Below are positions 1,804 through 64,000 of a stretch of 64,000 nt of DNA, piece by piece; position 1 is the first letter of the stretch; each line of letters opens with the position of its first letter. The notes under the pieces were generated by a model. The model saw nothing but the letters and a program-made list of their open reading frames with translations. It did no database searches and was not told where the DNA came from. The translations under genes and the position numbers were made by a program. The stretch lies in assembly GCA_943736015.1 (NCBI GenBank), contig OX031059.1, positions 47,813,159 to 47,877,158 of the forward strand. Direction: 5' to 3'. This DNA is from Tridacna crocea (Eukaryota; Mollusca; Bivalvia; Cardiida; Cardiidae).

Positions 1804-2034
1804 TTAACCCTTTACCAAACAATCCCTGGTTTTTACGGCTCTGAGTTGGAAGGCTTATTTGAAAACATTGTGGGAAAAGGAGAAAATGCTGGTAACCAGC
1901 ATTTTCTCCTTTTCCCACAATGTTTTCTACCCTGCTGGAAACAAATTTCAATGTTTGAGTTACGTTTATTTTGTCTTCTGCAAGTGCTTTCAATTTGGAC
2001 CAGTTAAAAATCTTGTTGTTTGGGAAAGGGTTAA
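1804..2034 (+). mobile_element. pal-TTAA MITE, full-length copy
   Basis: TTAACCCTTTACCA at the left and TTTGGGAAAGGGTTAA at the right enclose a near-perfect central palindrome. It belongs to the group with the CCCTGGTTTTTA left arm and the CTGGAAACAAATTTC right arm. Confidence 0.92.
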
Positions 2035-2660
2035 AGTTATCAGCTTTAAACTTGGACAAATTGTGTTATATTGAAATGGGAACCCATACATCTGGGACAG
2101 TAAACCATCAGTTTTTGACACAGTTATGCCCCTTTTCCTACTTACAAATTTTCCTGAAAATTAAGTGCCTGCAGTGCCAAGCATGCAGGTCTTTTGTTTT
2201 TCCTGATCCAGTGACAGGTATGTATGTGGCGGAGTTGTGGGGGGGGGGTATTCCTGAGGCTGCAATACTTCTGGTTGACAGGATTGGTTTTCTTAAAATT
2301 TCTGAAAGAATGTAGGCTAAACTGGATTCATGCTTTAGTTAGAGCCCATGTACAAGAAAACTGATGCGTTATGGACTAAGTTACTGACATTCAGCTGATT
2401 CGATAGTATTGGAACTTTAGACAGTGTAAAATGAAAAAGGCCTATAAGGATGAAAGTAAAAGTCCAGTGTTTGTTGGCTGCACAGGTGTTAAAACCAATA
2501 TCTGTTAGGTAATGGGTAAATCTAATATTCATTGAAAAGAAAGATTATACTATGTGTAATACTCTTGCTTCATCCTTTTTTAATGAAATGCTAAATTCTC
2601 TACAATAGTATGTACACACCTGGATCTATAAGTGGTTGAACTTCAAAGCCACCTAAATCT

Positions 2661-2772
2661 TTAACGATAACAAAGTTTCATCGACCCTGAGAAAGAAGCC
2701 TTTTGAAAACATTGTGGGATAAGGACAACATGCTAGTCAGCATTTTCCCTTTTTCTGCAGTGTTTTCTACCT
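2661..2772 (+). mobile_element. pal-TTAA MITE, left part only, decayed
   Basis: The left arm CGACCCTGAGAAAGAAGCC and a mismatched palindrome are present; the right arm is missing after GTTTTCTACCTT. Confidence 0.65.
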
Positions 2773-3002
2773 TGCCTTTGTAATAGAACATTATGATATT
2801 GTCATGCCATTATTTATACCACATTAAGATAGTTGTCTGCATTTTTTTCTTCACTACGAACTAGTTTGAAAATTAGTTGTTTTGTAAAAAGTGACAGAAG
2901 GGTGGGACGTGGGGGAATCTAGGATTTTATTATCCTACCAATCTTAAAAAAAAGATATATTTTAGGATAGATTAAGTCTGAACTGAGCTGGCAATTTTGA
3001 AA

Positions 3003-3297
3003 TTAACCCATTACCAAACAGTCCCTGGTTTTTACAACCCTGAGATAGAAGCCTTTTGGAAACACTGTGGGCAAATGTATTTTTACCAGTTTTCAAATTT
3101 GACTCTGTGTCATGGAGAAAGGGGGTTTCATGTAAAATTCCAACTTTTGCTAAAATCTCCTTCAGTTCCCATCAAAATTTCACACCCACCCTTTTCTCCT
3201 TTGACCACCTGATTTACCAACAACCTTCACTTTTGTAAAAAGAGACTTGTTTGGGGAGCATAATCCATCTATATGTATACACGGCTCCTGTTTATAT
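3003..3297. mobile_element. MITE left end fused to a pearl-like fragment
   Basis: TTAACCCATTACCA and the left arm of a + MITE run to about 3090 and stop inside the palindrome. There the sequence changes to the 'gtgtcatggagaaagggggt' type seen in the 54 kb pearl-like element and ends in GGGGAGCATAA...GGCTCCTGTTT, the same terminal block. One element has interrupted or truncated the other. Confidence 0.6.
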
Positions 3298-5201
3298 ATG
3301 CTGGTACCCTACATGACTTGGAATATGAATACAAAGTCTGCCCTTTGAAAAATTTAGTTCAGAAAGTGATGAATCAGTTCCTTTACCAGCAGACAAAAGT
3401 TTAGACTGATCCACATTGAAAGCACTTGTAGAGGGACAAAAAGTATAGCTGAAATGATTGGGTTTGGTCTTGACAATGTTGTTGAAAATGTGTGAACAGT
3501 AAAAAATCCTGATAATACCAGCACTTTATATCATTTCCCATGTTGTACTCCAAAGGATTCTTTCTTAACTCAAGAGTCATATTAGATGTGGTATTGTTTG
3601 GTGACTGGTTAAAAGTGTGGATTGAAATTTGAGTTAATGAGTCTTATACTGCAACACATTAGAGCAGAGCTATAAATGTTGATGAATCTGAACTACTTTT
3701 ATTGTAGAATGAATAATTAAAAGGACTTTGCTCTAAAATAACCATGCTAATGTAAAATACAGATTGCCATAAACATGGTTTTTTTTAAAAACAGCCATGA
3801 CTTACAATGTGGTCTTATGTCTTCAACATGTTAAATTTTACATACATAATTATGTCCATATTGAAAGCATCATCTTCGTGAGCCAAGGTTACGACCACTA
3901 CGTGGATCTTACCTTGACTGATTGAGCCTGATTTTGAGATTCCTGTGATGCGCCCTCTATTGGATGCTGGTTATTACCCCCCTTTACATCATATTTCTAC
4001 AAGCCAATGAAATATTGTTTTACAAACCGCTTACGAATACACATGAAGCGATAAGCAGACATCCACGTGGGTTTCCATGTTTACCTTCTATTCAAAAGGT
4101 AGAGACCTTATTCTATTTTTATCAAATATGAAATGCAATGAGCGATTTCATTTGTTGCAGTTAGAGCTGGCTGCATCCAATAAAAAAGCGTATCCGGGGA
4201 ATGTAAAAATCAAGCTCGAACTGCCAAGGGTAGAGTAGCGTAATGAATTGTCAGCCTTGGCTTGCGAAGATGTGAAAGCATTTGTCAGCAGTGAATTAGA
4301 TGTGGCTGGAACAAGAGAATATCCTCTTGAAAGGGTAAAAATTTGTTGAAAAAGGGACAAAAAATGCTGGTAATCATGGTTCAAATCACCCCTCCCAAAC
4401 TTGAAAACAGGATTATTTGGGGAAGGATTCGGTAGAGTAGCTGTCAATCAATAGGCATATAATACAAGACAGGCTTATTATGGCTATTCTATGCTGTAGA
4501 ATGCTGTATACATGTATTTTCTATTAGTGACAATGATCCTGATAGGGGTTTTTGACAGGTTGGTTTGAACACAATGCTTGTCTTTTACAGAGTAGTTTAG
4601 ATGCCCTTTCTTCTTACATACTCTGATAATTCAAGCCTTGATTTTGATTGTAGGTGATAGTAGCATAAGTTGTGCTTAGCATCCTAATGATTAATTTTTA
4701 TTCAGCTCGTCTGAGCATGAAGTGCTCAAGTTGAGCTTTTGTGACCAAGCTGTGTTTGGAGTCTTTTGAGTGTGGTACAACATCTATCTTGCAGTCATCA
4801 ACAATTACCTTGAGTGTACTCTGTAGGCCACAGTTTCTATCAGATAATAATGGAAATTGATCAAAATGTTTATCTTGACAGTATTTCAGAGATCTTTGGG
4901 GTTGGATCTCATTGGATCAAAAAAGCCAGTCAGTGGGTCCAAATACATTCTGTCTCCTCCACACAGTTTCACAAACTGTACATGCAGCAAGATAACCAAC
5001 TGGAAGGGGACTCGGTATTGCTCTGCAATACTATCAGAATACTTGTTTTATTACAGTAGCATTTTGATTTGAGAAACTATTTTTAAAGACTTTGTGGTTT
5101 GGTACACAACAGAAAAGCTTCTGGAGTAAATGTTTCAACATCCTGCAGTTGCCTGTCCTTCTGTATCTCTAAATTAATAAGCCACACCAAAAAATTAGAG
5201 A
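3298..5201. other. Upstream flank or intron of FAM110; MITE relics only
   Basis: Two strongly decayed MITE remnants are recognisable (about 3380-3480 and 4245-4440, from GAAAGCACTTG/GAAAGCATTTG and a broken stem). Around 4700-4760 lies an AGCTCGTCTGAGC...GAGCTTTTG segment also seen at 25075. No coding exon could be supported. Confidence 0.5.
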
Positions 5202-5291
5202 TTAAAGAATTTGACATCTTTATCTTGATTCTATTTCATTTGTAATTTAAAGAATTTAACATCTTTATCTTGATTCTGTTTCATTTGTAAT
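5202..5291 (+). repeat. Tandem duplication 2 x 45 bp beside a splice acceptor
   Basis: The unit starting TTAAAGAATTTGACATCTTT occurs at 5202 and again at 5247 with two changes. The second copy ends 27 bases before the FAM110 exon and may supply or disturb its branch-point region. Confidence 0.85.
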
Positions 5292-6353: not shown

Positions 6354-6680
6354 TTTAGTGTACATTCAGTTGTATCTTATTTTATGTGAATGCATTTTTC
6401 AGGGCTTTAACCCATTACCACACAATCCCTACTTTTGACGCCCCTGAGAAAGAAGCCTTTTGAAAACACTGTGGGAAAAAGAAAAAATGCTGGTAACCAG
6501 CATTTTCTCCTTTTCCCACAGTGTTTTCTGTCCAAATGCTTTCATTTTGAACCAGTCTAAAATTTTGTCGTGTGGTAAAGAGTTAATAGAGCTTCAGATA
6601 AGAGGAAGTGATGGTATTCTTAAGTTATTATTGCTCTTTGAAACCCTTTGTTGTGTGTACCAATATTAGAATCATATTAA
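6354..6680 (+). repeat. Duplicated segment, copy 1 (filled with a MITE)
   Basis: The sequence TTTAGTGTACATTCAGTTGT... at 6354-6410 continues at 6587-6680, interrupted only by the MITE. The same ~150 bp reads through without interruption at 19003-19153 in the same intron. Outside these limits the two loci do not match. Confidence 0.9.
6407..6586 (+). mobile_element. pal-TTAA MITE, short copy with proven TTAA target
   Basis: TTAACCCATTACCA to GGTAAAGAGTTAA. The right arm is shortened by an internal deletion. The stem carries ACTGTGGG on one side and CCCACAGT on the other, a matched pair of changes. The empty counterpart at 19056-19059 has a single TTAA. Confidence 0.95.
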
Positions 6681-7094: not shown

Positions 7095-7325
7095 TTAACT
7101 CTTTACCACACGAGAAAATTTTAGACTTGTCAGAACTGAAAGCATTTGCAGATGACAAAATAAAAGTGACTGAAAATGTGAAATTTGTTTTGTGAAGGGT
7201 TAAAAAAACATTGTGGGAAAAGGAGAAAATGCTGGTTACCAGCATTTTATCCTTTTCCCACAATGTTTTCTAAAGGCTTCTCTCTCAGGGGCGTCAAAAG
7301 TAGGGATTATGTGGTAATGGATTAA
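7095..7325 (-). mobile_element. pal-TTAA MITE, full-length
   Basis: Starts TTAACTCTTTACCA and ends GTGGTAATGGATTAA; centre GGTTACC as expected for this orientation. The terminal TTAA is shared with the next copy. Confidence 0.9.
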
Positions 7326-7549
7326 CTCTTTACCACGCAATCCCAACTTTTAATGACCTTGAGAAAGAAAGCTTTTGAAAACATTGTGGGAAAAGGAGAA
7401 AATGCTGGTAACCAGCATTTTCTCCTTTTCCCACAATGTTTTCTACCCTTCCCAAACCAAGTTTAATGTTTTCAGTCACAGTTATTTTTGTCTTTGCAAA
7501 TGCTTTCAATTTGGACTAGTCTAAAATTTTGTCGTTTGGTAAAGAGTAA
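7322..7549 (+). mobile_element. pal-TTAA MITE, full-length, head-to-head with the previous copy
   Basis: TTAACTCTTTACCA opposite in orientation to the preceding MITE and sharing its TTAA. The stem is perfect over more than 60 bases. The right TTAA has changed to GTAA. Confidence 0.9.
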
Positions 7550-10163: not shown

Positions 10164-10874
10164 TAGCTACATGTAAACATACCCGAAAATACAAACATGT
10201 TGAAAATAAACCAAGATGTATTTACATAAGTAAATATTACTTATTTGAAAAATAGATAAAACACTTCAGTTATTGTTGAGTAAGATAAAAAAAAAAACTG
10301 TAGAAAATAAGACAGTTTTTGCCTCAAGGACTAATTATCATGATAACTCTGTAAAAACAAAGTATTAGGGTCTACAATTGTCGATCAGTTTTAGCAAACA
10401 TACACAAACTTGATCAAAGAGTGCAATAAATGCTTAACATTAACTTTCACATGTATGCAATATGAATTTTTTACACCATAATTATTGTTGAACTCTTGAC
10501 ATGAGGACAAAATTTTTGCCTGTCCCAAATTAAAACCAACTATTCAGATTTTCATACTCTGGCCAAACTAAAAAATGACTTGTCACTGGTTTGTATTTGT
10601 AAAGGTTAGAAAATTACAGAAAAAAAAAAGAAATACTGATGTCTTGTTTTCCAACAATGTTTACATGATCCCTTCTACATAGGACTCATAAAACACAGGA
10701 ATCATTGCCTGTTAAAAGGCTAAAAAAAGGAAAATCCTCAAATTCTCCCAATTTAACTTTGTTTGACACAAAATTCATGGGTCAAATACTGGTCACGTTT
10801 GGATAAACCATAAGGCATTCCATCCAAATACTGATTATTATATGTATATATCTGTAACAGTTCTGCTAAATAGT
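10164..10874. other. FAM110 intron, nothing recognised
   Basis: AT-rich, no open frame or repeat family identified. Confidence 0.5.
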
Positions 10875-12062: not shown

Positions 12063-12289
12063 TTATCTCTTTACCACACAGTCCCGAGTTAACAACTGTG
12101 TGAAAGAAGCCCTTTGAAAACAAAGTGGGAAATGGAGAATATGCTGATAACCAGCATTTTCTCCTTTTCCCACAATGTTTTCTACCCTATTGAAGACATA
12201 TTCCATCATTTGAGCGACATTAGAATTGTCATCTGCAAATGCTTTCAGTTTGGACATGTCCAAAATTTCATTGTGTGGTAAAAAGTTAA
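12063..12289 (+). mobile_element. pal-TTAA MITE, near full-length
   Basis: Left end TTATCTCTTTACCA, right end GTGTGGTAAAAAGTTAA. Stem arms differ at several positions (AAAGTGGGAAATGG against CCTTTTCCCACAAT). Confidence 0.85.
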
Positions 12290-14178: not shown

Positions 14179-14401
14179 TTAACCCATTAACACTCAATCC
14201 TTCCTTTTGACAGCCCTGAGAATGAAGCCTTAAGAAAGCATTGTGGAAAAAGGAGAAAAAGCTGGTAACCAGTATTTTCTCCTTTGCCCACAATATTTTC
14301 TACTCTTCACAGAACAAATTTTTAATTTTCAGTCACTTTTATTTTGTCGTCTGCTTTCGATTTGGACAAGCCTAAAATATTGTCGATTGGTAATGAGTTA
14401 A
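14179..14401 (+). mobile_element. pal-TTAA MITE, full-length
   Basis: TTAACCCATTAACA to GGTAATGAGTTAA with a good stem (AGGAGAAAAAGCTGGTAACC). Confidence 0.88.
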
Positions 14402-16306: not shown

Positions 16307-16535
16307 TTAACTCTTTACCACATAGCAGAATTTTAGACTGGTCCAAATTTCAAGCATTTGCAGGCGACAAAATAAATGTGAATCAAAAATTGAAATTTTA
16401 TGAGGAAAGGGTAGAAAACATTTTGGGAAAAGGAGAAAATGCTGGTTACCAGCATTTTCTTCTTTTCCCACAATGTTTTCAAAGGCTTTCTTTTTCAGGG
16501 TTGTTAAAAGTGGGGATTGTGTGGTAAAGAGTTAA
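16307..16535 (-). mobile_element. pal-TTAA MITE, full-length
   Basis: TTAACTCTTTACCA to GTGGTAAAGAGTTAA, centre GGTTACC. Shares its last TTAA with the next partial copy. Confidence 0.92.
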
Positions 16536-16650
16536 CTCTTTACCAGACAATAAAGATTTAACCTGGTCAAAACTGAATGCATTTTCAGACCACAGATTAT
16601 TTGTCACTCAATTAATAATGAAATTTTACTTTGAAAGGATAAAAACATGG
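16532..16650 (-). mobile_element. pal-TTAA MITE, truncated
   Basis: Terminal part TTAACTCTTTACCA and CTGGTCAAAACTGAATGCAT; breaks off before the palindrome. A similar fragment lies at 16722-16800. Confidence 0.7.
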
Positions 16651-16927: not shown

Positions 16928-17154
16928 TTAACCCTTAACCAAACAATCATGTTTTTTATGACTCCACTGAGGAAAGCTTTCGAAAACATGGTGGGAAAAG
17001 GAGAAAATGCTGGTAGCATTTTCTCTCCTTTTCCCACCAAGCTTTCACTGTTTCAGTGACAAGTTCCGTTATCTGAGGAACATGTGAATTATTGTCTGTA
17101 CAAGATTTGAATTTGAACTGGTCTTGTATTTTATATTGTGGCAAAGGGTGATTA
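16928..17154 (+). mobile_element. pal-TTAA MITE with shortened stem tip
   Basis: TTAACCCTTAACCA start; the hairpin tip is reduced to GAAAATGCTGGTAGCATTTTC, a smaller but still symmetrical centre. Right terminus GGCAAAGGGTGA is decayed. Confidence 0.82.
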
Positions 17155-18229: not shown

Positions 18230-18693
18230 TTAATTCTTTACCAAACAGTAGTAACTTAGACTTGTCCAAATTCAAAGCCATTTGCAGACAACTAATCAAA
18301 TGTGGCTCAAATAATGAAATTTGTCTCCAGAAAGGACTAGAAAACATTGTTGAAAAAGGAGAAAATGCTAGTTATTAGCCTTTGACCTTTGTCCTTTTTC
18401 CCAGATGTTTTCAGAAGGCTTCTTCCACAGGTTGGTTAACCCTTTACCTGATATGTCAATTTGAGGCTCTTCCATTTCAGCAGCAAATAATGATATGATG
18501 TCAAAAATACGGACAAATGAGGATACAAATATCTGATTGAGTGCAAAACAATGTGGGAAAAGGAGAAATTGCTCATTATGAGCAATTTCTCCTTTTCCCA
18601 CAATGTTTTCAAAAGCTGTCTGTTTTTGATAAGTCAAAATGAGTATCTATGGAGTAATGGGTTAAAACAAGGTATTGTTTGGTAAAGAGTTAA
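18230..18693 (-). mobile_element. pal-TTAA MITE interrupted by a second MITE
   Basis: Starts TTAATTCTTTACCA and ends TTTGGTAAAGAGTTAA. Its inner TTAA, normally part of the ...CGTTAAAAG... arm, is duplicated on both sides of the inserted copy at 18440-18661. Confidence 0.88.
18436..18665. mobile_element. pal-TTAA MITE subfamily 2, nested
   Basis: TTAACCCTTTACC to GGAGTAATGGGTTAA. The stem is perfect: GGGAAAAGGAGAAATTGCTC, short tip, then the inverse. It sits in a TTAA of the older MITE. Confidence 0.92.
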
Positions 18694-19340: not shown

Positions 19341-19566
19341 TTGAACTCATTATCACACAATACAGACTTTTACAGACCCTGAGAAAGAGACCTTTGAAAA
19401 CATTGTGGAAAAGGGAAAAATGCTGGTATCCAGCATTTTCTCCTTTTTCCACCATGCTTTTTAACTTTTCCAAAACAATTTTCAATTTTCCAGACATGTA
19501 AATATGTCATCTGCAAATGCTTTCAATTTGTACCCATCTATAACCTTGTTGTTTGGTAAAGAGATA
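19341..19566 (+). mobile_element. pal-TTAA MITE, near full-length
   Basis: TTGAACTCATTATCACACAA to TTTGGTAAAGAGATA; the centre TGCTGGTATCCAGCA is an altered tip. Confidence 0.82.
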
Positions 19567-19576
19567 AGAAAATATG

Positions 19577-20260: not shown

Positions 20261-20456
20261 GTGAGATTATTCTTAAGCTCTACTGGCTTCCTGTCTTGTT
20301 TAAGCAGGAAAGTCTGCATTTGTGTCCAGATCTTTGTGAAAATTGCACAGTTTCTTTATCTCATCAATAGCTTGAACCATTTTCAATAATAAGAACAACA
20401 AAATCATCATCATATGAAAGACTTCAGCCTCAGCAAACATGTACATAAATGTATGT

Positions 20457-20667
20457 AACTTTTTATCACACAATCCTGAGTTTTAAAAACCCCCGAGGAA
20501 AAACCCTTTGGAAAACATATTTGGAACAGGAGAAAATGTTGGAGACCATTAAGTATTCTACCTGTTTTGGTATATATCTATTCATTTTGAGTATCATTTT
20601 ATTTTGTTGTCTGCAAATACTTCCAGTGTGGACCAATCTAAAATTTTGTTGTGTGGTAAAGACTTAA
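20457..20667 (+). mobile_element. pal-TTAA MITE with most of the second stem arm lost
   Basis: Left arm CACACAATCCTGAG and one stem arm are present; the other arm is reduced to ATTAAGTATTCTACC. It lies in FAM110 intron 2 and ends GTGTGGTAAAGACTTAA. Confidence 0.78.
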
Positions 20668-21791: not shown

Positions 21792-22020
21792 TTAACTCTT
21801 TACCACACAATCCCGACTTTTAATGACCCTGAGAAAGAAACCTATAGAAAACATTGTGGGAAAAGGAGAAAATGCTGGTAACCAGCATTTTCTTCTTTTC
21901 CCACAATGTTTTCTACCCTTCCCAGACCAAATTTCAATTTTTCAGTCACCTTCAATTTGTTGTCTACAAATGCTTTCAATTTGGACCAGTCTAAAATTTT
22001 CTCGAATTGTAAGAAGTTAA
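21792..22020 (+). mobile_element. pal-TTAA MITE, full-length, just 3' of FAM110
   Basis: TTAACTCTTTACCA left; stem perfect except CTTCTTTTCC; right end TTGTAAGAAGTTAA. Confidence 0.9.
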
Positions 22021-22449: not shown

Positions 22450-22920
22450 AAATGGCACTATTCATGTATTTAAATTGAACTACTCTGTGCCAAGTTTTAT
22501 ATTCTTGCGCTAAAGCCTGGGACCTTTCGGAGGTTCATGAATTTATCAGTGTCATTGACGACCCACTTTTTTTGAAAAGGGCCGAGTTATTACACTTGAA
22601 ATTACGTTTTTCAGTCTGTCTGGCTTTATTTGCGATAAAAGAGCATATAATCATTGCTTTTTCTGTTTGTATGTGGTTAGGACAGAGAACATAGTAATGA
22701 TATTCCAAAGCGTTTGAAGCATTGTCAAGCTAAAAACATCCGGGATATTCCGGCAAAATTTAAGCGGGAACTACTTGAACTCAATCTCTTTCTACTGTTG
22801 TGTACCTAAACGCGATGGAGTATTAGATTCATGGTACAAAATAAGATACATGGTTATCAAAATTCAATCTTGAACTCATTGTGGTATTGTCTTCGACAAA
22901 TACCACAAAAATCTCAAGAT
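22450..22920. other. Intergenic, nothing recognised
   Basis: Slightly CpG-richer sequence without open frame or repeat that I know. Confidence 0.45.
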
Positions 22921-22924
22921 TTAT

Positions 22925-23118
22925 TGACGCTAAAGAGGGAGGCCTTTGAGTAAGCTAGAAAAGAGGAAACTGCCTGTAACCAGTACATGTATTTTCTCCT
23001 TTTCCAACAATTTTTTTCTATATTTGCATAGAACATAATTTGATGTACATCTAAGTTTTCGTCCGCAAATGCTTTCATAATGAAATAGTTTACAATTTTG
23101 TCATCTTGTAAAGGTTAA
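22925..23118 (+). mobile_element. pal-TTAA MITE, decayed
   Basis: Recognisable by GAAACTGCCTGTAACCAGT, TTTTCTCCTTTTCCAACAA, GTCCGCAAATGCTTTC and the end GTAAAGGTTAA. Confidence 0.7.
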
Positions 23119-23440: not shown

Positions 23441-23668
23441 TTAACCCTTTCCCAAACAAGCCCTGGTTTTTATGTGTCTGCAGTAAAAGCCTTTTAAAAA
23501 CAGTGTGGGAAAAGGAGAAATTGCTTGTAACAGGCAATTTCTCCTTTTCCTACACAGTTTTCTACCCTTTTTGAGAACTTTCTGCCACTTTCTCCAAATC
23601 CAAAATAGTCGTCTGCAAACTGTTTCGGTTTGGAAGAGTCCAAAATTCGTCATTTGGGAAAAGGTTAA
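23441..23668 (+). mobile_element. pal-TTAA MITE, subfamily 2-like tip
   Basis: TTAACCCTTTCCCA to TTTGGGAAAAGGTTAA. Hairpin tip GGAGAAATTGCTTGTAACAG / GCAATTTCTCC combines the AATTGC core with a GTAAC centre. Confidence 0.9.
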
Positions 23669-26217: not shown

Positions 26218-26443
26218 TTTACCCTTTACCAAACACTCCCTGGTTTTTTATGATCCTTAGGTAAAAGCCTTTTGCAAACATTGTGGGAAAAGGAGAAAAT
26301 GCTGGTAACCCAGCATTTTCTCCTTTTCCCATAATGTTTTTTACCCTCTGGAGACAAATTTCAAGTTTTGAGCTATTTTGTCGTCTACAAGTGCTATCAA
26401 TTTGAACCAGTCTAAATTTTTTCTTCGTTTGGTAAAGGGTTAA
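26218..26443 (+). mobile_element. pal-TTAA MITE, full-length
   Basis: Left end TTTACCCTTTACCA, right end GTTTGGTAAAGGGTTAA; the tip has one extra base (GGTAACCCAGC). Confidence 0.88.
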
Positions 26444-26465: not shown

Positions 26466-26661
26466 TTAAACTCTTTACCAAATAGCAAAATTCTAGACTG
26501 GTCGAAAGCATTTGCAGACGACAAAATTAACAAAACTAAAAAAAATTGAAACTTCTTTTAAGAGGGTGCTGATTACAAGCATTTTCTCCTTTTCCCACAG
26601 TGTTTTCAAAAGGCTTCTTCCTCAGAGTCGTTAAAACCTGGGACTGTTTGGTAAAGAGTTG
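26466..26661 (-). mobile_element. pal-TTAA MITE lacking one stem arm
   Basis: TTAAACTCTTTACCA, GTCGAAAGCATTTGCAGACG, then only one arm of the stem from GGGTGCTGATTACAAGC; ends TTTGGTAAAGAGTTG. Confidence 0.8.
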
Positions 26662-27155: not shown

Positions 27156-27384
27156 TTAACCCATTCCCAAACGACAAAACTTTGGACCAGTCCAAATTGA
27201 CGGCACTTGCAGACGACAAAATAAACGTAACCAAAAAATTGAAATTTGTTTCCAGCATGGTAGAAAACATTGTTGGAAAAGGAGAAAATGCTGGTTACCA
27301 GCATTTTCTCCTTTTCTCACAATTTTTTCTACAGGCGCCTTTCTCAAGGGCGTCAAATGTTGGGATTGTGTGGTAATGGGTTAA
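27156..27384 (-). mobile_element. pal-TTAA MITE, full-length
   Basis: TTAACCCATTCCCA to GTGGTAATGGGTTAA; centre GGTTACC; stem nearly intact. Confidence 0.92.
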
Positions 27385-28039: not shown

Positions 28040-28253
28040 TTGTTTACCACACAATTTTTTGTTTTATAAGACCCTTATGGCTTTTAGAAAGCATTGTGGG
28101 CAAATTAGAAGATGCTGCAGGTCTTCCTTTTCCACCATATTTTTACTCTTCTACAGAAAATCTCATAAATCAATTGGAGAAACATCTCTCATATACATGT
28201 AAATGCTTTCAATTTGGACTAGTCTAATATCTTGATGTCTGACAGAGAGTTAA
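28040..28253 (+). mobile_element. pal-TTAA MITE, decayed
   Basis: GTTTACCACACAAT, AAGACCCTTATGGC, a collapsed stem, then AATGCTTTCAATTTGGACTA and GACAGAGAGTTAA. Confidence 0.72.
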
Positions 28254-29560: not shown

Positions 29561-29569
29561 GGTGTATGC

Positions 29570-30308: not shown

Positions 30309-30535
30309 TTAACCCATTACCACACAATCCCTACTTTTGACGCCCCTGAGAAAGAAGCCTTTAGAAAACATTGTGGGAAAAGGAGAAAATGCTGGTAACC
30401 AGCATTTTCTCCTTTTCCCAAAGTGTTTTCTTACCTTCACAAAACAAATTTCCAATTTTCAGTCACTTTTGTTTTGTCATCTGCAAATGCTTTCAATTTG
30501 GACCACTAAAATATCGTCGTTAGGTAATGGGTTAA
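30309..30535 (+). mobile_element. pal-TTAA MITE, full-length
   Basis: TTAACCCATTACCA to TTAGGTAATGGGTTAA; typical young left arm CACAATCCCTACTTTTGACG. Confidence 0.92.
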
Positions 30536-31651: not shown

Positions 31652-31882
31652 TTAAGTCTTTACCAAACCACAAAATTTTAGACTGGTCCAAATTGAAAGC
31701 ATTTGCATACCTCAAAATAAAAGTGACTAAATATCTGAAATTTGTATAGGGAAGGGCAGAAAATATTGTGGGGAAAAGGAGAAAATGCTGGTAACCAGCA
31801 TTTTCTCATTTTCCCACAATGTTTTCAAAAGACTTCTTTCTCAGGGTTTTTTAAAAGTTGGGATTGTGTGGGAAAGGTTTAA
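31652..31882 (-). mobile_element. pal-TTAA MITE with inverted centre
   Basis: TTAAGTCTTTACCA to GGGAAAGGTTTAA. Arms show - orientation, yet the tip is GGTAACC, the + version. Shares a TTAA with the next copy. Confidence 0.9.
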
Positions 31883-32110
31883 CTCTTTACCACACAATCC
31901 CAACTTTTAACGACTCTGAGAAAGAACGCTTTCGAAAAAATTGTGTGAAAAGGAGAAAATGCCGGTAACCAGCATTTTCTCCTTTTCCCACAATGTTTTC
32001 TACTCTGCTGGAAACCAATTTCACATTTTTTTGATTTTTGCTTATTTTGTCGTCTGCAAATGCTTTCAATTTGGACTAGTCTAAAATTTTGTGGTTTGGT
32101 AAAGAGTTAA
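31879..32110 (+). mobile_element. pal-TTAA MITE, full-length, head-to-head partner
   Basis: TTAACTCTTTACCA to GTTTGGTAAAGAGTTAA; centre GGTAACC. Confidence 0.92.
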
Positions 32111-32166: not shown

Positions 32167-32366
32167 AGCCCTTTACCAAACAACATATTCCAAAGGGATG
32201 TTAAAATATGGCACTCTGTGTTAGACAACAATTTCCAAAATTTTTACAAATTTACAAATTCAATGATAGGGTATAAAAATTTGGGGAAAATGGACAAAAT
32301 GCTGGCTAGTAGGATTTTGTACAATATATTTAAAGGGGTGTAAACATTGGTTGTTTGGTAAAGAAC
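32167..32366. mobile_element. pal-TTAA MITE, badly decayed
   Basis: Ends AGCCCTTTACCAAACAACA and TTGTTTGGTAAAGAACTA survive; the stem is reduced to ATGGACAAAATGCTGGCTAG. Confidence 0.6.
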
Positions 32367-32593
32367 TACTCCTTACCACAGGAGAAAAATTTATACTGGT
32401 CCAAATTGAAAGTATTTACAGACGACAAAATAAAGGTGACTGAAAAATTGAAATTTGTTCTGGAAAGGGTAGAAAACACTGTGGGAAAAGGAGAAAATGC
32501 TGGTTACCAGCATTTTCTCCTTTTCCCACAGTATTTTCAAAAGGCTTCTTTTTCAGGGGCGTCAAAAGTAGGGATTGTGTGGTAATGGGTTAA
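32366..32593 (-). mobile_element. pal-TTAA MITE, full-length
   Basis: Left end CTCCTTACCACAGG, right end GTGGTAATGGGTTAA. Stem arms carry the matched pair ACTGTGGG / CCCACAGT; tip GGTTACC. Confidence 0.9.
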
Positions 32594-32745
32594 CCCTCTA
32601 CCAAACAAATCCTGGTCTTTATGACCCTGAGATAGAACACTTTTAAAAACATTGTGGGTAAAGGAGAAAATGCTGGTAACCAGCATTTTCTGCAAATTAA
32701 TGCTTCCAGTTTGGTCTAAGATTATGTTGTTTGATAAAGAGTTAA
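32590..32745 (+). mobile_element. pal-TTAA MITE with deletion of one stem arm
   Basis: TTAACCCTCTACCA, intact first arm to CAGCATTTTCTGC, then directly the right arm; ends TTTGATAAAGAGTTAA. Confidence 0.85.
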
Positions 32746-33429: not shown

Positions 33430-33647
33430 TTAACTCTACCACATGACAAAAATGTAGACTTTTCCAAATTGAAAGCATTTGCAGATGACAATTTCAACAT
33501 GAATGAAGTAATGAAATTTGTATTTGAAAGAAAACATGCAAACATTTGGAAATGCTTCTTACCAGCATTTTCTCCTTTTTACACATTTTTAAAAGGCGCT
33601 TTACTTAGGGTTGTTAAAACCCTGTGATTTTGTGGTAAAGAGTTCAA
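33430..33647 (-). mobile_element. pal-TTAA MITE, diverged
   Basis: TTAACTCTACCACATG start and TTTGTGGTAAAGAGTTCAA end; stem shortened to one good arm. Confidence 0.8.
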
Positions 33648-34044: not shown

Positions 34045-34268
34045 TTAAACCGTTTATCAAACAAAAAAATGTCAGGTTTGTCCAAATCTAAAGCAGACAA
34101 CAGAATAAAAGTGACTGAAAATTTGAAATTTGTTTTGTGAAGGGTAGAAAACACTGTGGGAAAAGGAGAAAATGCTGGTAACCAGCATTTTCTCCTTTTC
34201 CCACAATGTTTTCTGAAGGCTTTTTTCTCAGGGTCGTCAAAAGAAGGGATTGTGTGGTAATGGGTTAA
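34045..34268 (-). mobile_element. pal-TTAA MITE with inverted centre
   Basis: TTAAACCGTTTATCA start, GTGGTAATGGGTTAA end. - oriented arms but GGTAACC tip; the stem has one unmatched position (ACTGTGGG / CCCACAAT). Confidence 0.87.
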
Positions 34269-34574: not shown

Positions 34575-34803
34575 TTAACCCATTACCAAATGACAATATT
34601 TTAGACTGGTCTAAATTGAAAGCATTTGCAGACAACAAAATAAAAGTGAGTGAAAATTTGAAATTTGTTTTGGGAAGGATAGAAAACATTGTGGGAAAAG
34701 GAGAAAATGCTGGTTACCAGCATTTTCTCCTTTTCCCACAATGTTTTCTAAAGGCTTCTTTCTCAGGGGCGTCAAAAGTAGGGATTGTGTGGTAATGGGT
34801 AAA
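34575..34803 (-). mobile_element. pal-TTAA MITE, full-length
   Basis: TTAACCCATTACCA to GTGGTAATGGGTAAA with a perfect stem and GGTTACC tip; one of the youngest-looking copies. Confidence 0.93.
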
Positions 34804-37472: not shown

Positions 37473-37701
37473 TTAACTCTTTACCAAACAACAAAATTCT
37501 AGACCAATTGAAGTTGAAAGCATTTGCAGACAACACAATAAATGTGACTGAAAATTTAAAATTTTGTTTGGGAAGGGTAGAAAACATTGTGGGAAATGGA
37601 GAAAATGCTGGTTACCAGCATTTTCTCCATTTCCCACAATGTTTTCATAAGGCTTTTTTCTCAGGGTCGTTAAAAGTTGGGATTGTGTTGTAAAGAGTTA
37701 A
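37473..37701 (-). mobile_element. pal-TTAA MITE with co-varied stem
   Basis: TTAACTCTTTACCA to TTGTAAAGAGTTAA. Both arms carry the same change: GGGAAATGGAG faces CTCCATTTCCC, where other copies have GGGAAAAGGAG / CTCCTTTTCCC. Confidence 0.93.
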
Positions 37702-42315: not shown

Positions 42316-42370
42316 AAAAGTGTTCAAAATTATGCTCTGTACAACAAACTTACTACAATGCACTACTTAC

Positions 42371-44809: not shown

Positions 44810-45041
44810 CTGAAATTAGAAAAAAAAAAGGAAAGAAACTTGAAGTCATATTTTTAACAGTCTTTTTCATCTTATTAATGATGGGAAATTTCATTTCCTC
44901 CAAATATTGTATTTCTCATTTGTGTCTAAAGCCATCCTACAAACTGAATCCATTCCTGTATATTGTTTTTGCCCTCATGATGCAATCAACCAGAAAACAG
45001 GGGATACCAGATCTACTCCAGAGTCATTAGATTTGATGCCC

Positions 45042-45269
45042 TTAACCCTTTACCACACAATGACAACTTTTGACGGTCCTTGGAAATAAGCCTTTTGAAA
45101 ACATTGTGGGAAAAGAGAAAATGCTGGTTAATAGCATATTCTCCTTTTCCCAAAATGTTTTCTATCTTTTCAATAAACAGTTGCAACATTTGAGCCACAC
45201 TGAAATTGTTGTCTGCAAATGCTTTCAATTTGAAAAGGGCTAAAATTTTGTCATCTGGTAAAGGGTTAA
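45042..45269 (+). mobile_element. pal-TTAA MITE, full-length
   Basis: TTAACCCTTTACCA to TCTGGTAAAGGGTTAA; tip changed to GCTGGTTAATAGCA. It lies in the presumed first intron of the RAD51AP2-like gene. Confidence 0.88.
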
Positions 45270-47249: not shown

Positions 47250-47465
47250 GAATACTCATTACCAGATGACAAAATTTTGGCTTGTCCTGATTGATAGTAT
47301 TTGGTGGAAAACAAAATTTTAATGATGTGTGGGTAAAGAGTTTGCATTTTTTTTCTGGAAAGGGGAATATTCTCGTTATGAGCATTTTCTACTTTTTCCA
47401 GAGTGTTTTCAAAAGCTTTCTACCTTAGGGCCTAAAAAGCCAGGGCTTATCTGGGAAAGGATTAA
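47250..47465 (-). mobile_element. pal-TTAA MITE, diverged
   Basis: ACTCATTACCAGATGACAAA, a stem with an altered tip (TCTCGTTATGAGCA), end TCTGGGAAAGGATTAA. Confidence 0.75.
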
Positions 47466-49800: not shown

Positions 49801-50028
49801 TTAACTCTCTACCAAACAATTCCTGGTTTTTATGACCCGTAATGGAAGCCTTTTGAAAACATTGTTGGAAAAGTAGATAATGCTGTTAATCAGCATTTAC
49901 TCCTTTTCCCACAATGTTTTCTACCCGACTGGAAACAAATTTCAATTTTTGAGTTACATTTATTTTGACATCTGCAAGTGCTTTCCATTTGGACCAGTCT
50001 AAAATTTTGTTGTTTGGTAAAGATTTAA
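49801..50028 (+). mobile_element. pal-TTAA MITE, full-length
   Basis: TTAACTCTCTACCA to TTTGGTAAAGATTTAA with a moderately mismatched stem (GTTGGAAAAGTAGATAATGC). Confidence 0.88.
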
Positions 50029-51508: not shown

Positions 51509-51734
51509 TTAACTCTTTACCAAATGACAAAATTCAGGCCTAGACCAAATTCAATACATTTGCAGGCAACATATTGAACATAGCTAAACAGACAATTTCT
51601 ATATGTGATATGGTAGATAACATTGTGGGAAAAGGAGAAAATGCTGGTCAGCATTTTCTCCTTTTCCCATAATGTTTTCAAAGGACTTCTTCCCCAGGGT
51701 CATTAAAACTCGGGATTGTGTGGTAAAGAGTTGA
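51509..51734 (-). mobile_element. pal-TTAA MITE with shortened tip
   Basis: TTAACTCTTTACCA to TGTGGTAAAGAGTTGA; the tip is trimmed to AATGCTGGTCAGCATT, leaving the rest of the stem intact. Confidence 0.9.
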
Positions 51735-53848: not shown

Positions 53849-54076
53849 TTAATCCTTTACCAAACAGTAAAACTTTAGACTGGTCCAAATTCAAAGCACT
53901 TGCAGACAACAAGATATATGCAACTAAATATTGAAATTTGTTTCCAGCAGGGTAGAAAACATGGTGAGAAAAGGAGAAAATGCTGGTTGCTAGCATTTTC
54001 TCCTTTTCCCACAATTTTTTCAAAAGGTTTCAAACTGAGGGTCATAAAAACAAGGGATTGTTTGGTAAAGGGTTAA
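53849..54076 (-). mobile_element. pal-TTAA MITE, full-length
   Basis: TTAATCCTTTACCA to TTTGGTAAAGGGTTAA; tip GCTGGTTGCTAGC slightly altered. Confidence 0.88.
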
Positions 54077-54392: not shown

Positions 54393-55613
54393 TATGCTCC
54401 GCGAAGGGCGAGCATATAGTCGCCGCTTCGTCTGTCCGTCCGTCCTTCCGTCGGTCTGTCCGTCCGTCCGAAGCGATTTCTCCACCCTTGGACCAAATTG
54501 GATGAAACTTCATATATGAACTCCTTAGGGTAACGCGCCGATATAACTTTCCCGGATTTTCAATTTGACCCCGTGTCATGGAAAAAAGGGGCTTAATGCA
54601 AAATTGCAATTTTTACCAGTATCTCATTCAGTTTTTGTCAGAATATCATGAAACTTCATGGTTATATTGTTTATGGAAAGTTTTAGCATGTGCCCTTGCT
54701 ATTTTTAATCTGGGCATTTTTTAAGTTGACGTTCTGTCATGGAAAAAGGGGGCTCCTTGCAAAATTCTAATTTTTACTAATATTTCATTCAGTTTTGGTC
54801 AAAATTTCATTATACTTCATGGTTATATTGTTTTTTCAAGGTTTCACCATGTGCTCTTGTTTCTTTATCTATGTGTTTTTCAATTTGACCCTCTGTCATG
54901 GAAAAAGGGGGTTTCTTGTAAAATGAAAAAGGGGCCCTAATGCAAAATTGCAATTTTTACTAATATCTTGTTCAGTTTTTGTCAACATTTCATGGTTATA
55001 TCTTGTTTTACAAGTTTCAACATGTGCCCGTTGTTTTTGCAATCTATGAATTATTAATGCGCAAATACGTCTTTCCTGGTTTCTCAAATTAAGGCTGCAT
55101 CACGGAAAAAGGGGACTTCATGGAAAAAATTGTTTTTCACTAGGTTTTATCAGTGCTCAAAACTTTGTGAAATTTCAAATCTGAACTTGTTGGAACGTTG
55201 CCCAGGTACCTCTCTTCCTTTTTCTCAATTTCAGGCTGCGTCTCGGAAAAAGGGGGCTTCATGTAAAAAATTGTTTTATGTAATATTTAATACATGACAG
55301 CTCAAAATTTTATGAAATTTCGAATTTTGATTTATTATTAAAAAATGCCACAAACCACACACCCGTTGTATTTATTGCAATGATCCAATATTGTCTTACG
55401 GGAAAAGGGGGCTTAAAGGGGGTTTATTGGGCTTATTGACCTCTATAAGTTTGTGTTGGCTATCTCTAAGATAGTAATTGCCTTTTCACTTCAAATTTTG
55501 GGGGGCATGAACAGGTTCTTTTAGGATAAAAGAAGTGAATTTATATTAATTTCTTATATTTTATGACAATCACTTGTTCGGGGAGCATAACCTGTCTCTG
55601 ACGGCTCTTGTTT
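54393..55613 (-). mobile_element. Pearl/Helentron-like element, longest copy
   Basis: Hairpin TATGCTC...GAGCATA (54393-54416), then a GTCCGTCCGTCC-type microsatellite, then diverged repeats of GTCATGGAAAAAGGGGGCTT with CAGTTTTTGTCA and TCATGGTTATATTG, and the terminal block CGGGGAGCATAACCTGTCTC ... GGCTCTTGTTTT. No Rep/helicase frame is present. Confidence 0.68.
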
Positions 55614-55837: not shown

Positions 55838-56068
55838 TTAACTCATTACCAAATGACAATATTTTTGCCCTGTCCAAATCGAAAGCAATTGCAGATGAGA
55901 AAATAAAGGTGAGTGAAAATTCAAGATTTGTTTCGTGAAGGGCAGAAAACAAACATTGTCGGAAAAAAGAAAATGCTGGTTAGTGGTTACCAGCATTTTC
56001 TCCTATTTTTTCTAGAGGCTTCTTTTTCAAGGTTGTCAAAAGTACTGGTTTATGTGGTAATGGGTTAA
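55838..56068 (-). mobile_element. pal-TTAA MITE, diverged
   Basis: TTAACTCATTACCA to TGTGGTAATGGGTTAA. One stem arm is shortened and the tip has an extra GGTTAGT before GGTTACC. Confidence 0.87.
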
Positions 56069-56132: not shown

Positions 56133-56337
56133 TTAACTCTTTACCAAACGACAAAACTTTAGACTGGTCCAAATGGAAAGCACTAGCAGATGACAAAATA
56201 AATTGCACCTCAAAACTTGAAATTTGTTTCCAGCAGGGTAGGACACATTGTGGGGAAAAGAGAAAATGCAGATACAATGTTTTCAAAGGCTTTTATTAGA
56301 GTCGTAAAAACCAGGGATTGTCATGGTAAAGGGTTAA
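56133..56337 (-). mobile_element. pal-TTAA MITE that has lost its palindrome
   Basis: TTAACTCTTTACCA to CATGGTAAAGGGTTAA. Between ACACATTGTGGGGAAAAGAG and CAATGTTTTC only a few bases remain of the tip and second arm. Confidence 0.88.
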
Positions 56338-56764: not shown

Positions 56765-56941
56765 TTAACCCTTTCCCACACAGTCCCAACTTTTAATGAC
56801 CCTGAATGGGAAGGCTTCTGAAAACAATGTTGTCTACCCTGCTGGAAACAAATTTCAATTTTTGAGTTGCATTTATTTTTTCATCTGCAAGTGCTTTACA
56901 TTTGGACCAGTCTAAAATTTTGTGTTTTAGTAAAGGGTTAA
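56765..56941 (+). mobile_element. pal-TTAA MITE with clean loss of the palindrome
   Basis: TTAACCCTTTCCCA to AGTAAAGGGTTAA; left arm GAAAACAATGTTGTCTACC joins directly to the right arm, so nearly the whole stem is missing while both ends are intact. Shares its TTAA with the next copy. Confidence 0.88.
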
Positions 56942-57520: not shown

Positions 57521-57742
57521 TTAACTCTTTACCAAACAACAAAATTTTGGACTTAACCAAAATGAAAGCATTTGCAGACGACAAAGTAAACTAAGCTCAA
57601 ATGATGATTTCTGTTATGGATAGGTAGAAAATGTCGTTGGAAAAAGAGAAAATGCTGGTAACCAGCATATTTTCCTTTTACCACAATGTTTTCAAAAGCC
57701 GCCTTCTTCATAAGGAGTCGGGATTGTGTGGTAAATGGTTGA
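57521..57742 (-). mobile_element. pal-TTAA MITE with inverted centre
   Basis: TTAACTCTTTACCA to TGTGGTAAATGGTTGA; - oriented arms with a GGTAACC tip. Confidence 0.87.
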
Positions 57743-59322: not shown

Positions 59323-59518
59323 TAAACTCTTTTCAACACAACCCAAACTTTTAACGACCCTGAGAAAAAAGCCTATAGAAAAAATTATGGGAATTTTTTC
59401 CACAATATTTTCTACACTGTCAAAGTCGGAAATCATCATATTACCAAAATTTAATTTGTTGTCTGCATATGCTTTGAATTAGGACAGTCCAAAAATTTGT
59501 TGTTTGGTAAAGAGTTAA
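59322..59518 (+). mobile_element. pal-TTAA MITE with deleted hairpin tip
   Basis: GTAAACTCTTTTCAACACAA start, CGACCCTGAGAAAAAAGCC, then only AAATTATGGGAATTTTTTCC as hairpin; ends TTTGGTAAAGAGTTAA. Confidence 0.82.
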
Positions 59519-61317: not shown

Positions 61318-61544
61318 TTACCCTTTACCACACAATTCTGACCTTGAACTATCTACGATAGAAGGCTTCAGAAAACGTTGTGGGAAAAGGAGAAAATGCT
61401 GGTAACCAGCATTTTCTACCTTTTCTAACAATGTTTTCTACCCTTCCAACAACATATTTCAATCTTTGAGCTAACTTATTTTATTGTCTGTAAATGCTTT
61501 CAATTTGGACAGATTTGAAATTTTGTCTTTTGGTGCAGAGTTAA
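61318..61544 (+). mobile_element. pal-TTAA MITE, full-length
   Basis: Left end TTACCCTTTACCA, right end TTTGGTGCAGAGTTAA, tip GGTAACC. Confidence 0.88.
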
Positions 61545-61800: not shown

Positions 61801-62029
61801 TTAACCCATTACCACACAATCCCTACTTTTGACACCCCTGAGAAAAAAGCCTTTAGAAAACATTGTGGGAAAAGGAGAAAATGCTGGTAACCAGCATTTT
61901 CTCCTTTCCCCACAATGTTTTCTACCCTTCACAGAACAAATTTCAAATTTTCAGTTGCTTTTATTTTGTCGTCTGCAAAAGCTTTTGATTTGGACAAACC
62001 CAAAATTTTGTCGTTTGGTAATGAGTTAA
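61801..62029 (+). mobile_element. pal-TTAA MITE, full-length, young
   Basis: TTAACCCATTACCA to GTTTGGTAATGAGTTAA with a near-perfect stem. Shares its TTAA with the next copy in the same orientation. Confidence 0.93.
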
Positions 62030-62239
62030 TTCATTATTGCACAATCCCAACTTTTATCGACCCTGAGAAAAAAAAACTTTGAAAATGTTGTAGGAAATGG
62101 AGAAAATGCTGGTAACCAGCATTTTCTCCTTTTCCCACCATGTTTTCTACCTTATCCAAATCAAATTTCAAATTTTGATACACATTTATTTTGTCGTCTG
62201 CAAATGCTTTCAAAATTTTGTCGTTTGGTTGAGAGATAA
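62026..62239 (+). mobile_element. pal-TTAA MITE, head-to-tail partner
   Basis: TTAATTCATTATTGCACAATCCC start. One arm is GGAAATGGAG while the partner remains CTCCTTTTCC, an unmatched version of the change seen at 37473. Ends TTTGGTTGAGAGATAA. Confidence 0.87.
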
Positions 62240-62427
62240 CAATCCATAGTGACCAGTGTTTTTTCTCATCTTCACAATATATATGTTTCTTTTCTTTCAA
62301 AAGAAGAATTTTGGATTTTCAAACATGTTGGCTTAATTTCTCCAAAAGAAATTCATTTTGGTCAGTCTAAGATTTTCTGACAAAGACTTAGTAGAATAGG
62401 CTGTTTGAAACCTGTACGAGACATGAT

Positions 62428-62656
62428 TTAGCTCTGTACCATGCTACAAAATTTTACACAATTTCAAATAGAAAGCATTTGCTGATGATAAAATTCAGAC
62501 TTAAAAATTGAAATTTCTCATGTGAAAGTAGAAAACATTTGTTGGAAAAGGAGAAAATGCTGGTTCCCTGTATTTTATCCTTTTCCCACACGAAAGATTT
62601 TTAAAATGCTTCTGTCTTGTTGTCATTAGAATTTTGATTGTGTGGTAAAGGTTTTT
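62428..62656 (-). mobile_element. pal-TTAA MITE, diverged
   Basis: TTAGCTCTGTACCATGC start, stem GTTGGAAAAGGAGAAAATGC with a diverged partner, end TGTGGTAAAGG. Confidence 0.78.
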
Positions 62657-62712
62657 AAAACTTATTACCTCCTGCAGCAAACATGAAGCGGACAACATTT
62701 GAAATACCAATG

Positions 62713-62940
62713 TTAACCCATTACCACACAATTCCTACTTTTAACGACCCTGAGAAAGAAGCCTTTTGAAAACACTGTGGGAAAAGGAGAAAATGCTGGT
62801 AACCAGCATTTTCTCCTTTTCCCACAGTGTTTTTTACCCTTCCTAAACCAAATTTTAATTTTCAGTCACCTTTATTTTGTCGTCTGCAAATGCTTTCAAT
62901 TTGGACCAGTCTAAAATCTTCTCATGTGGTAAAGAGTTAA
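62713..62940 (+). mobile_element. pal-TTAA MITE, full-length, young, matched stem change
   Basis: TTAACCCATTACCA to TGTGGTAAAGAGTTAA. The stem is perfect including the pair ACTGTGGG / CCCACAGT. Confidence 0.95.
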
Positions 62941-63201
62941 TAATGACCCAGAATCTGATCTTTGTCTATGCTCTCTGTAAATTAAACTGTAGTGGATCTT
63001 TGACTCATGAATAAGGACTGAAAAGGCATTCTTCAAGTCAACTGTAGATGTGGAGCAAATATCATGTAATTATGCAGTTTGGTTATTTATGCATCATCAT
63101 TTATTATCTGAAATGTCAAACACTGCCCTTGTTTTAAAATATGCTGTAATTTGGCTTTATGGCTCTAGATAGAACTATTAATCATTCATTCTATCATGAT
63201 C

Positions 63202-63635
63202 TTAACCCTTTCCCAAGCAATTCTGTTTTTAAATGACTTGGAGGAAGAAGGTTTTAGAAACATTCTGGGAAAAGGAGAAAATGCTGATAATCAGCATAAA
63301 ACTCAATTTCCCATATTGAAAAAAAAAGTTAAATGAACTGAGCCTATGGTATAGTCCATAAATATTTTCAGTTTGGACAAGTCTTAACTCTTTCTCAAAT
63401 TATATTATTTTAGAACATTCCAATCAGAAAGCACTTGCAGACAGCAACATTTATATGGCATATAATGGGATGTTTATATGATGATATAGAAAATATGGTG
63501 GGAAATGGATAAAATGCTGGTTACCATCATTATCTTCTTTTCCCACTATGTTTTCAAAAGGCCTTCATTCTCAGGGTCGTTAGATCTTGTGATTGTGTGG
63601 TAAAGGGTTAAAGTTTTTTGTCTGGTAAAGTGTGA
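63202..63635 (+). mobile_element. pal-TTAA MITE interrupted by another MITE
   Basis: TTAACCCTTTCCCA start; the right arm CAGTTTGGACAAGTC stops at TTAA (63384) and resumes after the inserted copy as AGTTTTTTGTCTGGTAAAGT, where intact copies read TCTAAAATTTTGTCG. Confidence 0.85.
63384..63611 (-). mobile_element. pal-TTAA MITE, nested
   Basis: TTAACTCTTTCTCA to TGTGGTAAAGGGTTAA, GGTTACC tip (GCTGGTTACCATCAT), inserted in the right arm of the MITE around it. Confidence 0.87.
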
Positions 63636-63936
63636 ACCCCAAAAGTGCCTTTAGAAACTCAAGTTGCATTTTAAGACTTTTCAGGATCAGAATGTAAGAA
63701 AGCTGCAGTCAGATCTGTAATTTATTCTGTTAGTTTTAAAAGATATTCTGGTAAAAAACAGTCAAGATGTTGCAACATTTGATTTTCTTTCTGATTATCA
63801 GTGTCTGGTTAGGATTTGAAAGAAAATGGGGGACTGTCCCCCATCACTCTTAAAAGTTTTGGGGATTCCTGAAAACTATGGGGGACCAGAATCATCTTCA
63901 AAAAGAAACAGGGCTAATCTCTTTTGGATCATTCAT
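63636..63936. other. Intergenic, nothing recognised
   Basis: No supported feature. Confidence 0.5.
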
Positions 63937-64000
63937 TTAACCCATTACCACACAATCCCTACTTTTAACGCCCCTGAGAAAGAAGCCTTTTGAAAACACT
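63937..64000 (+). mobile_element. pal-TTAA MITE cut by the window edge
   Basis: TTAACCCATTACCACACAATCCC and GCCCCTGAGAAAGAAGCC followed by the first bases of the stem. Confidence 0.9.

Follow-up and report, generated by a model that had tools for sequence, protein, structure and literature searches.

The window analysed here is a stretch of 64,000 nucleotides from the genome of the giant clam Tridacna crocea (C4:47813159-47877158), and much of it consists of one family of miniature inverted-repeat transposable elements (MITEs), which are short, lack coding capacity, and carry TTAA at their ends and a palindrome inside. From sequence comparison, we consider this MITE very probably to be a non-autonomous element of the piggyBac superfamily that would be moved by the transposase of a partner element, with the palindrome acting as a cis element whose arms are occasionally copied onto each other. 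PiggyBac MITEs are a known kind of element, the nearest precedent being the CMITEs of Acropora corals (PMC2872659). The clam MITE is exceptional in number, and its palindrome is conserved and partly self-homogenising; how the palindrome helps the element is something we infer.

Architecture and abundance of the element

With the copy at 34575-34803 as query, blastn recovered 27 full-length copies in the window, whose alignment gave a first consensus; a profile built from these copies was run on the window, and its hits were chained. This yielded 89 copies in mixed orientation (42 + and 47 -), 45 of which reach both ends of the element. Together they cover 16,480 bp, or 25.8% of the window, and the same profile found nothing in three Markov sequences of 64 kb each. 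At one copy per 0.72 kb, the density is slightly above the 75-80 copies and one per 0.8 kb given in the original prediction, a model's reading of the letters alone, and the three copies named there as full length (34575-34803, 61801-62029 and 62713-62940) all proved to be so. The 29-bp core of the palindrome, GAGAAAATGCTGGTWACCAGCATTTTCTC, was matched 34 times in the window with at most 3 mismatches, compared to 0 matches in 100 shuffles.

The window and fetched loci together provided 109 full-length copies, 96 of them distinct in sequence. Their consensus is 229 bp long with TTAA at each end. The palindrome, which had been described as near-perfect, ~67 bp long and off centre, spans consensus positions 108-174 (67 bp), is exact over 33 bp on either side of a single central base (141), and leaves 107 bp on its left and 55 bp on its right, ends included; both arms flanking it are non-palindromic, as predicted. 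TTAA is present at the left end of 75, at the right end of 71 and at both ends of 58 of the 96 distinct copies. The terminal inverted repeat (TIR) is 10 bp long, of the form CYCWTTACCA with several variants, and the exact C[CT]C[AT]TTACCA occurs at 45 left and 49 right ends. The anticipated plan of TTAA plus an inverted terminus of ~10 bp is borne out, with the terminus first proposed, CTCTTTACCA, being just one among several forms.

Folded as single-stranded DNA and as RNA, the 34575 copy is far more stable than shuffled sequences (z of -10.2 and -11.3). Whole-length foldback MITEs can likewise form a strong hairpin, but in the clam MITE only an off-centre internal block is palindromic. Divergence of the MITE arms by codon position is 0.184/0.210/0.201, and one frame is open over 60 codons in 23 of 87 copies (the set used for divergence, in which near-duplicates and gappy rows of the 96 were dropped), which fits a chance open reading frame (ORF). 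A gene in the left arm was rejected, as a codon-position signal is absent. A chance open frame also runs across a MITE at window positions 1691-2059, on the plus strand of the element, and reads the palindrome as ENIVGKGENAGYQHFLLFPQCF; similar peptides may occur among the predicted proteins of other animals and would then be a lead to relatives elsewhere, and the palindrome and peptide strings had no match in the literature searched. IMG/VR viral contigs contain 0 exact matches to a 31-mer of the palindrome, and thus no viral carrier was seen there.

A consensus and a search of the host genome had been proposed as a check. The assembly comprises 1,048,827,098 bases in 31 contigs. It contains 183,553 exact matches to the 31-mer and 504,001 matches to the 29-mer core with at most 3 mismatches; reversed-pattern controls gave 0 in both cases. 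To our knowledge, the cores counted here exceed the number for any described MITE family. The claim that the family dominates the window was correct but understated, since the genome is about as dense as the window (0.48 vs 0.53 cores per kb). Six 10-kb stretches taken at fixed round coordinates on six chromosomes gave 47 profile hits and 17 cores, with a cover of 7.7-22.1% (mean 14.1%). Because cover per core agrees between the window (16,480/34 = 485 bp) and these samples (8,430/17 = 496 bp, at a slightly looser E-value), we scaled the core count to the genome; the family is then estimated at ~245-250 Mb, or ~23% of the genome, and by copies per core (89/34 to 47/17) at 1.3-1.4 million copies. 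The mean cover of the samples is below the scaled estimate because the six stretches are core-poor (0.28 per kb) compared to the genome average.

Target sites and piggyBac partner elements

Enough flank for an empty-site test was available in 93 of the 96 distinct copies, and when only gapless matches outside MITE sequence were accepted, two cases remained (L023:844-1070 and L025:3350-3578). All 8 gapless empty paralogues of the former, at 96.8-99.1% identity, read a single TTAA. Such pairs of filled and empty sites show duplication of the TTAA target site upon insertion. Both insertions sit in copies of another piggyBac family with flanks that differ by ~1-3% from their paralogues, and they are therefore young. 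The MITEs themselves depart from the consensus at 9/133 and 16/133 sites of the arms and at 2/65 and 4/67 sites of the palindrome; since the flanks have changed less than the arms, much of the arm divergence was, in these two cases, inherited from different source copies. Two further empty paralogues of the L025 site, among the matches listed, have a 1-bp gap.

Automatic annotation of giant clam genomes might imply a SINE, a Helitron or a satellite-like repeat: the repeat tables give SINEs and rolling-circle elements a large share (PMC11700175, Table 2) or list 'DNA, Unknown' at 34.9% (PMC10858879, Table 4, with no piggyBac row in the passage available). The TTAA duplication with empty sites, the TIRs at both ends and the dispersal in both orientations make this extremely improbable. 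We also considered homing of the MITE onto existing copies; this was rejected, as 11 abutting pairs among the 89 copies, in a window with 518 TTAA sites, are by rough reckoning about what random TTAA targeting would give.

A search of the genome with the piggyBac transposase domain PF13843 gave 118 matches, of which 30 loci were read. None of the matches listed falls inside the window, in agreement with the prediction that it holds no transposase. A piggyBac-like gene with matching termini, which had been suggested as a check, was found on other chromosomes: two partner elements (L039 and L051) have the same TTAA and TIR and an uninterrupted PF13843 domain, which supports the assignment to piggyBac first drawn from the TTAA targets. 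Partner 1 (L039/L043) is 7.2 kb long. Its central ~4.1 kb recurs at 99.5-99.98% identity on C3, C5, C9, C10 and C15, and five of the 30 loci (L017-L021) have this mutual identity over 4.1 kb. The C5 and C10 copies (L039, L042-L044) are 99.96% identical over 6.9 kb and diverge at ...TGGTAATGAGTTAA on the right and CCATTACCG on the left, giving the bounds of the element; the left boundary on C5 reads TTAACCCATTACCG. Partner 2 (L051, on C7) is 6.4 kb long, is bounded by TTAACTCTTTCCCACA and TGTGGGAAAGAGTTAA, and has pieces 70-73% identical to partner 1 and both ends in common with it. The L039 transposase ORF of 486 amino acids (aa) covers PF13843 positions 1-349 of 349 (E 2.6e-88) and matches piggyBat (PDB 9c0f, E 9e-40) and piggyBac (PDB 6x67, E 4e-36), with homology over the DDE domain and, for piggyBat, through the C-terminal region. 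SVDE, YFDN and GGVDLHDQ motifs, which we take to hold the catalytic aspartates, are visible in these alignments.

The right end of the MITE is identical to the left end of L051 at 34 of 38 positions, with a score of 56, whereas 2000 Markov sequences reached at most 26; over 45 bp, it matches L051 at 35 and L039 at 31 positions. The right arm is thus not without kin. At the left ends of both partners, the matched unit is repeated three or four times with 35-bp spacing, and the MITE right end corresponds to a partner left end shortened to the first 35-bp repeat. PiggyBat, which also has TTAA, carries three repeats of left-end motifs that are transposase sites, although the end and repeat sequences differ, the spacing is 44 bp instead of 35 bp, and the MITE, unlike piggyBat, is geneless (PMC11707139). 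By this analogy, the 35-bp repeats are putative transposase-binding sites. At its left end, the MITE has only the TIR in common with either partner (scores of 16-26, null maximum 26). Among the elements whose ends were read, the TIR together with a CTTTT-ACG-CCC motif at equal spacing occurs only in L039 and L051. We suggest that the partner-encoded transposase would bind both ends of the MITE, cut it out and paste it into TTAA.

The MITE might instead be moved by another TTAA transposase, from a different piggyBac family or from Kolobok, which we regard as improbable. At least five other putative piggyBac end types occur beside intact or near-intact transposase frames among the loci read (L003, L005-L015, L022-L025, L027 and L030), and a transposase can act on ends related to its own; these end types (CCCTTTATATAC, CCCTWGTCATGC, CCCTTTCAGCGC, CCCATTTATGCC and CCCTCTAGA, their bounds not checked by comparing copies) nonetheless differ from those of the MITE. 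Kolobok also targets TTAA, and the Xenopus T2-MITE is likewise abundant, but its ends are AG/AGGRR and its transposase belongs to another superfamily (PMC6004289). The commonest clam MITE ends begin C[CT]C, not AG, and a Kolobok MITE was rejected. The restriction of the TIR and spaced motif to L039 and L051 also argues for these partners, with 30 of the 118 transposase matches read and Kolobok genes not searched for.

Several observations do weigh against our assignment. A gapped ninth empty paralogue of the L023 site (L015, 93%), among the matches listed, has no TTAA there, and the 5 gapless empty paralogues of the L025 site read TTTA. On C10, the left TTAA of the partner copy is not intact, and among the near-identical partner copies only those on C5 and C10 were read out to their ends. 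Nested MITE copies aside, the partners contain nothing clearly related to the left arm and palindrome of the MITE (best match 13 bp, E 0.014), and the MITE is therefore not a simple internal deletion. Finally, the terminal motif CC[C/T]T, a general piggyBac hallmark (PMC2872659), is found at only 14 left and 37 right ends of the 96 copies; partner L051 likewise ends CTCTTT, and the motif is hence not strict in this family.

MITE copies are nested in L039 and L051 outside their main coding exon, and in L017-L021 identical nested copies at identical places were amplified along with the element. In the ~120-bp pieces compared, identity among most copies of the CCCTTTATATAC end type is 97-99%, and the genome thus seems to contain several young piggyBac lineages. 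A stretch of 9.9 kb around another piggyBac family (L040, C18:19002200-19012100) is MITE-poor, unlike the others in the same comparison, with a single short MITE match at its very end.

Like the clam MITE, the Acropora CMITEs are piggyBac-type MITEs with TTAA, variable TIRs and tandem arrays; their internal region of ~75 bp, of obscure origin, is more conserved than the ends and TIRs, and one family shares its ends with a piggyBac element (PMC2872659). They are, however, ~100 bp long with ~1,600 copies in A. millepora by the authors' estimate, compared to 229 bp and more than 500,000 cores here. Taking the CMITEs by their description, the word 'palindromic' is absent from the available text of PMC2872659, whereas the conserved region of the clam MITE is a 67-bp palindrome. 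This family is not described in the literature searched on palindromic piggyBac MITEs, very high-copy MITEs and Tridacna repeats, a search that did not extend to Repbase, Dfam or most subscription papers, and to that extent the earlier statement that the layout matches no named family stands.

Conservation and homogenisation of the palindrome

In the 87-copy set, divergence in the palindrome is 0.38 of that in the arms (95% interval 0.33-0.44), with a similar result when CG/TG/CA sites are left out, and the least diverged 67-bp window begins at position 107, one base ahead of the palindrome. Genome-wide, the core has 504,001 matches with at most 3 mismatches, compared to 264,718 for a left-arm stretch of the same length that is one of the better conserved parts of that arm. 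On a fixed tree, the internal branches, which represent source copies, sum to 0.309 for the palindrome and 1.736 for the arms. We suggest that the palindrome would be a cis element that a source copy has to retain in order to succeed. In all likelihood, this element would be either a symmetric site for the transposase or a host protein, or a hairpin whose extrusion draws the two ends together. The authors of the CMITE study similarly suspect that the conserved internal region aids transposition (PMC2872659). Two results count against selection on source copies as the full account: terminal branches are shorter in the palindrome too (6.53 vs 12.2 in the arms), and palindrome divergence binned against arm divergence has a slope of 0.44 with an intercept near zero. 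Source-level selection alone therefore does not fit every number.

Changes at mirror positions of the palindrome were also counted. Over 34 positions in the 96 copies, single-arm breaks number 385 and paired double changes 39. In the 87-copy set, the 31 paired doubles lie above both the mean (10.1) and the maximum (21) of the permutations; 10 of the 31 fall at a single position, perhaps diagnostic of one subfamily, and the unpaired doubles also exceed the mean (15 vs 10.1, maximum 20). Two sites were followed through the genome with the 183,553 unchanged cores as reference. For G>A at distance 3 from the centre (2,875 + 2,741 singles), 186 mirror doubles were found vs 42.9 expected, a 4.3-fold excess; for A>G at distance 10 (405 + 436 singles), 17 were found vs 0.96 expected, or 17.7-fold. 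Non-mirror controls gave 21 vs 12.9 expected (1.6-fold) on opposite arms and 29 vs 12.85 expected (2.3-fold) on the same arm. With this roughly two-fold background allowed for, both sites show a mirror excess of ~1.8% of singles (1.6-2.1%, depending on the control used), even though one site has 6.7 times as many singles as the other. This excess fits rare arm-to-arm copying; compensated source lineages may be an alternative source of mirror doubles. Inversion of the spacer would turn the central T into A; among 58 oriented intact cores, the central base is T in 53, A in 4 and G in 1, where a parsimony count is unreliable on the near-star tree.

Could such copying by itself have preserved the palindrome? 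It may be a functionless founder trait that persists solely through mutual templating of its arms, by cruciform formation or template switching, with post-insertion mutations erased in this way, and homogenisation of palindrome arms has been described elsewhere (PMC8794818; PMC8604942). The mirror excess, its similar share of singles at both sites and the shorter terminal branches speak for this, as does the ratio of palindrome to arm divergence among pairs of the 96 copies, which stays at 0.35-0.52 over most arm distances. Yet we think it unlikely. The 39 paired doubles are few beside the 385 single-arm breaks, so that correction would be too rare to halve divergence unless strongly biased towards the old state; it is the internal branches that are reduced most, to 0.18 of the arms; and the 8 closest pairs (arm distance <0.05; few, and probably including duplicates of one element) have a ratio of 1.03. 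Arm-to-arm copying alone looks too rare to explain the conservation. We thus return to a cis element kept through source copies in which, once inserted, one arm would occasionally serve as template for the other, as by template switching during replication. A bolder version sees the palindrome as a symmetric MITE enhancer of a new kind, on which very high transposition depends and which source selection and template switching together keep perfect; it is conceivable, but we propose it only tentatively.

Coordinates, neighbouring features and significance

The exemplar copy and the other window copies that reach both ends are collected in the table.

Table. MITE copies reaching both ends in the window. 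Rows marked profile come from the profile search; the other 44 of the 89 chained copies do not reach both ends.
Feature	Position	Strand	Basis	Remark
Exemplar full-length MITE copy	34575..34803	+		right target site duplication reads TAAA
Exemplar left TIR CCCATTACCA	34579..34588	+		
Exemplar left arm	34589..34679	+		clear relative in partner elements not found
Exemplar perfect palindrome	34680..34750	+		35-nt arms around one base; consensus 67 bp
Exemplar right arm	34751..34789	+		reverse complement contains CTTTTGACGCCCCT, as in a partner's left end
Exemplar right TIR TGGTAATGGG	34790..34799	+		
MITE copy	1805..2034	-	profile	both ends
MITE copy	6407..6586	-	profile	two pieces (interior partly missing), both ends
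MITE copy	7095..7324	+	profile	TTAA common with 7323..7549
MITE copy	7323..7549	-	profile	abuts 7095..7324
MITE copy	10491..10721	+	profile	decayed
MITE copy	12064..12289	-	profile	
MITE copy	14180..14401	-	profile	
MITE copy	16307..16534	+	profile	abuts 16532-16650
MITE copy	16929..17149	-	profile	
MITE copy	18436..18692	+	profile	abuts 18230-18438
MITE copy	19343..19567	-	profile	
MITE copy	20456..20667	-	profile	
MITE copy	21793..22020	-	profile	
MITE copy	22901..23116	-	profile	
MITE copy	23442..23668	-	profile	
MITE copy	26220..26443	-	profile	
MITE copy	26469..26660	+	profile	
MITE copy	27156..27383	+	profile	
MITE copy	28043..28253	-	profile	
MITE copy	30310..30535	-	profile	
MITE copy	31652..31881	+	profile	abuts 31880..32110
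MITE copy	31880..32110	-	profile	
MITE copy	32167..32363	+	profile	decayed
MITE copy	32368..32592	+	profile	first in abutting trio
MITE copy	32590..32745	-	profile	second in abutting trio
MITE copy	33431..33645	+	profile	
MITE copy	34048..34267	+	profile	
MITE copy	37473..37700	+	profile	
MITE copy	45043..45269	-	profile	
MITE copy	47254..47464	+	profile	
MITE copy	49802..50028	-	profile	
MITE copy	51509..51733	+	profile	
MITE copy	53849..54075	+	profile	
MITE copy	55838..56067	+	profile	
MITE copy	56133..56336	+	profile	
MITE copy	56765..56941	-	profile	two pieces
MITE copy	57521..57741	+	profile	
MITE copy	59325..59518	-	profile	
MITE copy	61320..61544	-	profile	
MITE copy	61802..62029	-	profile	named in original prediction; abuts 62028..62239
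MITE copy	62028..62239	-	profile	
MITE copy	62429..62653	+	profile	
MITE copy	62714..62940	-	profile	named in original prediction
MITE copy	63384..63610	+	profile	

Beside the MITEs, the window contains a FAM110-like gene with a FAM110_C domain (20796-21623, E 9e-21) and, on the minus strand, an open frame of 846 aa (42363-44903) with no Pfam match at E 0.01. Four tandem arrays with a period of 155-166 bp (43-787, 28763-29562, 30904-31525 and 54557-54924) have printed units that look different. ARAGORN predicts a tRNA-Trp at 3106-3188; Rfam gave 0 matches in the window at gathering score, and without that support the prediction is perhaps a tRNA-like fragment.

One MITE family at about a quarter of an animal genome, as reached by scaling, would explain much of the unclassified repeat in giant clams. 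With the partners known, the link between MITE and transposase can be tested directly, and so can the function of the palindrome. Moreover, some 500,000 dispersed copies make the rate and direction of correction between palindrome arms measurable in one genome; if the palindrome is indeed an enhancer of the kind tentatively proposed above, these near-identical copies would let a whole animal genome serve as a natural assay of quasi-palindrome correction.

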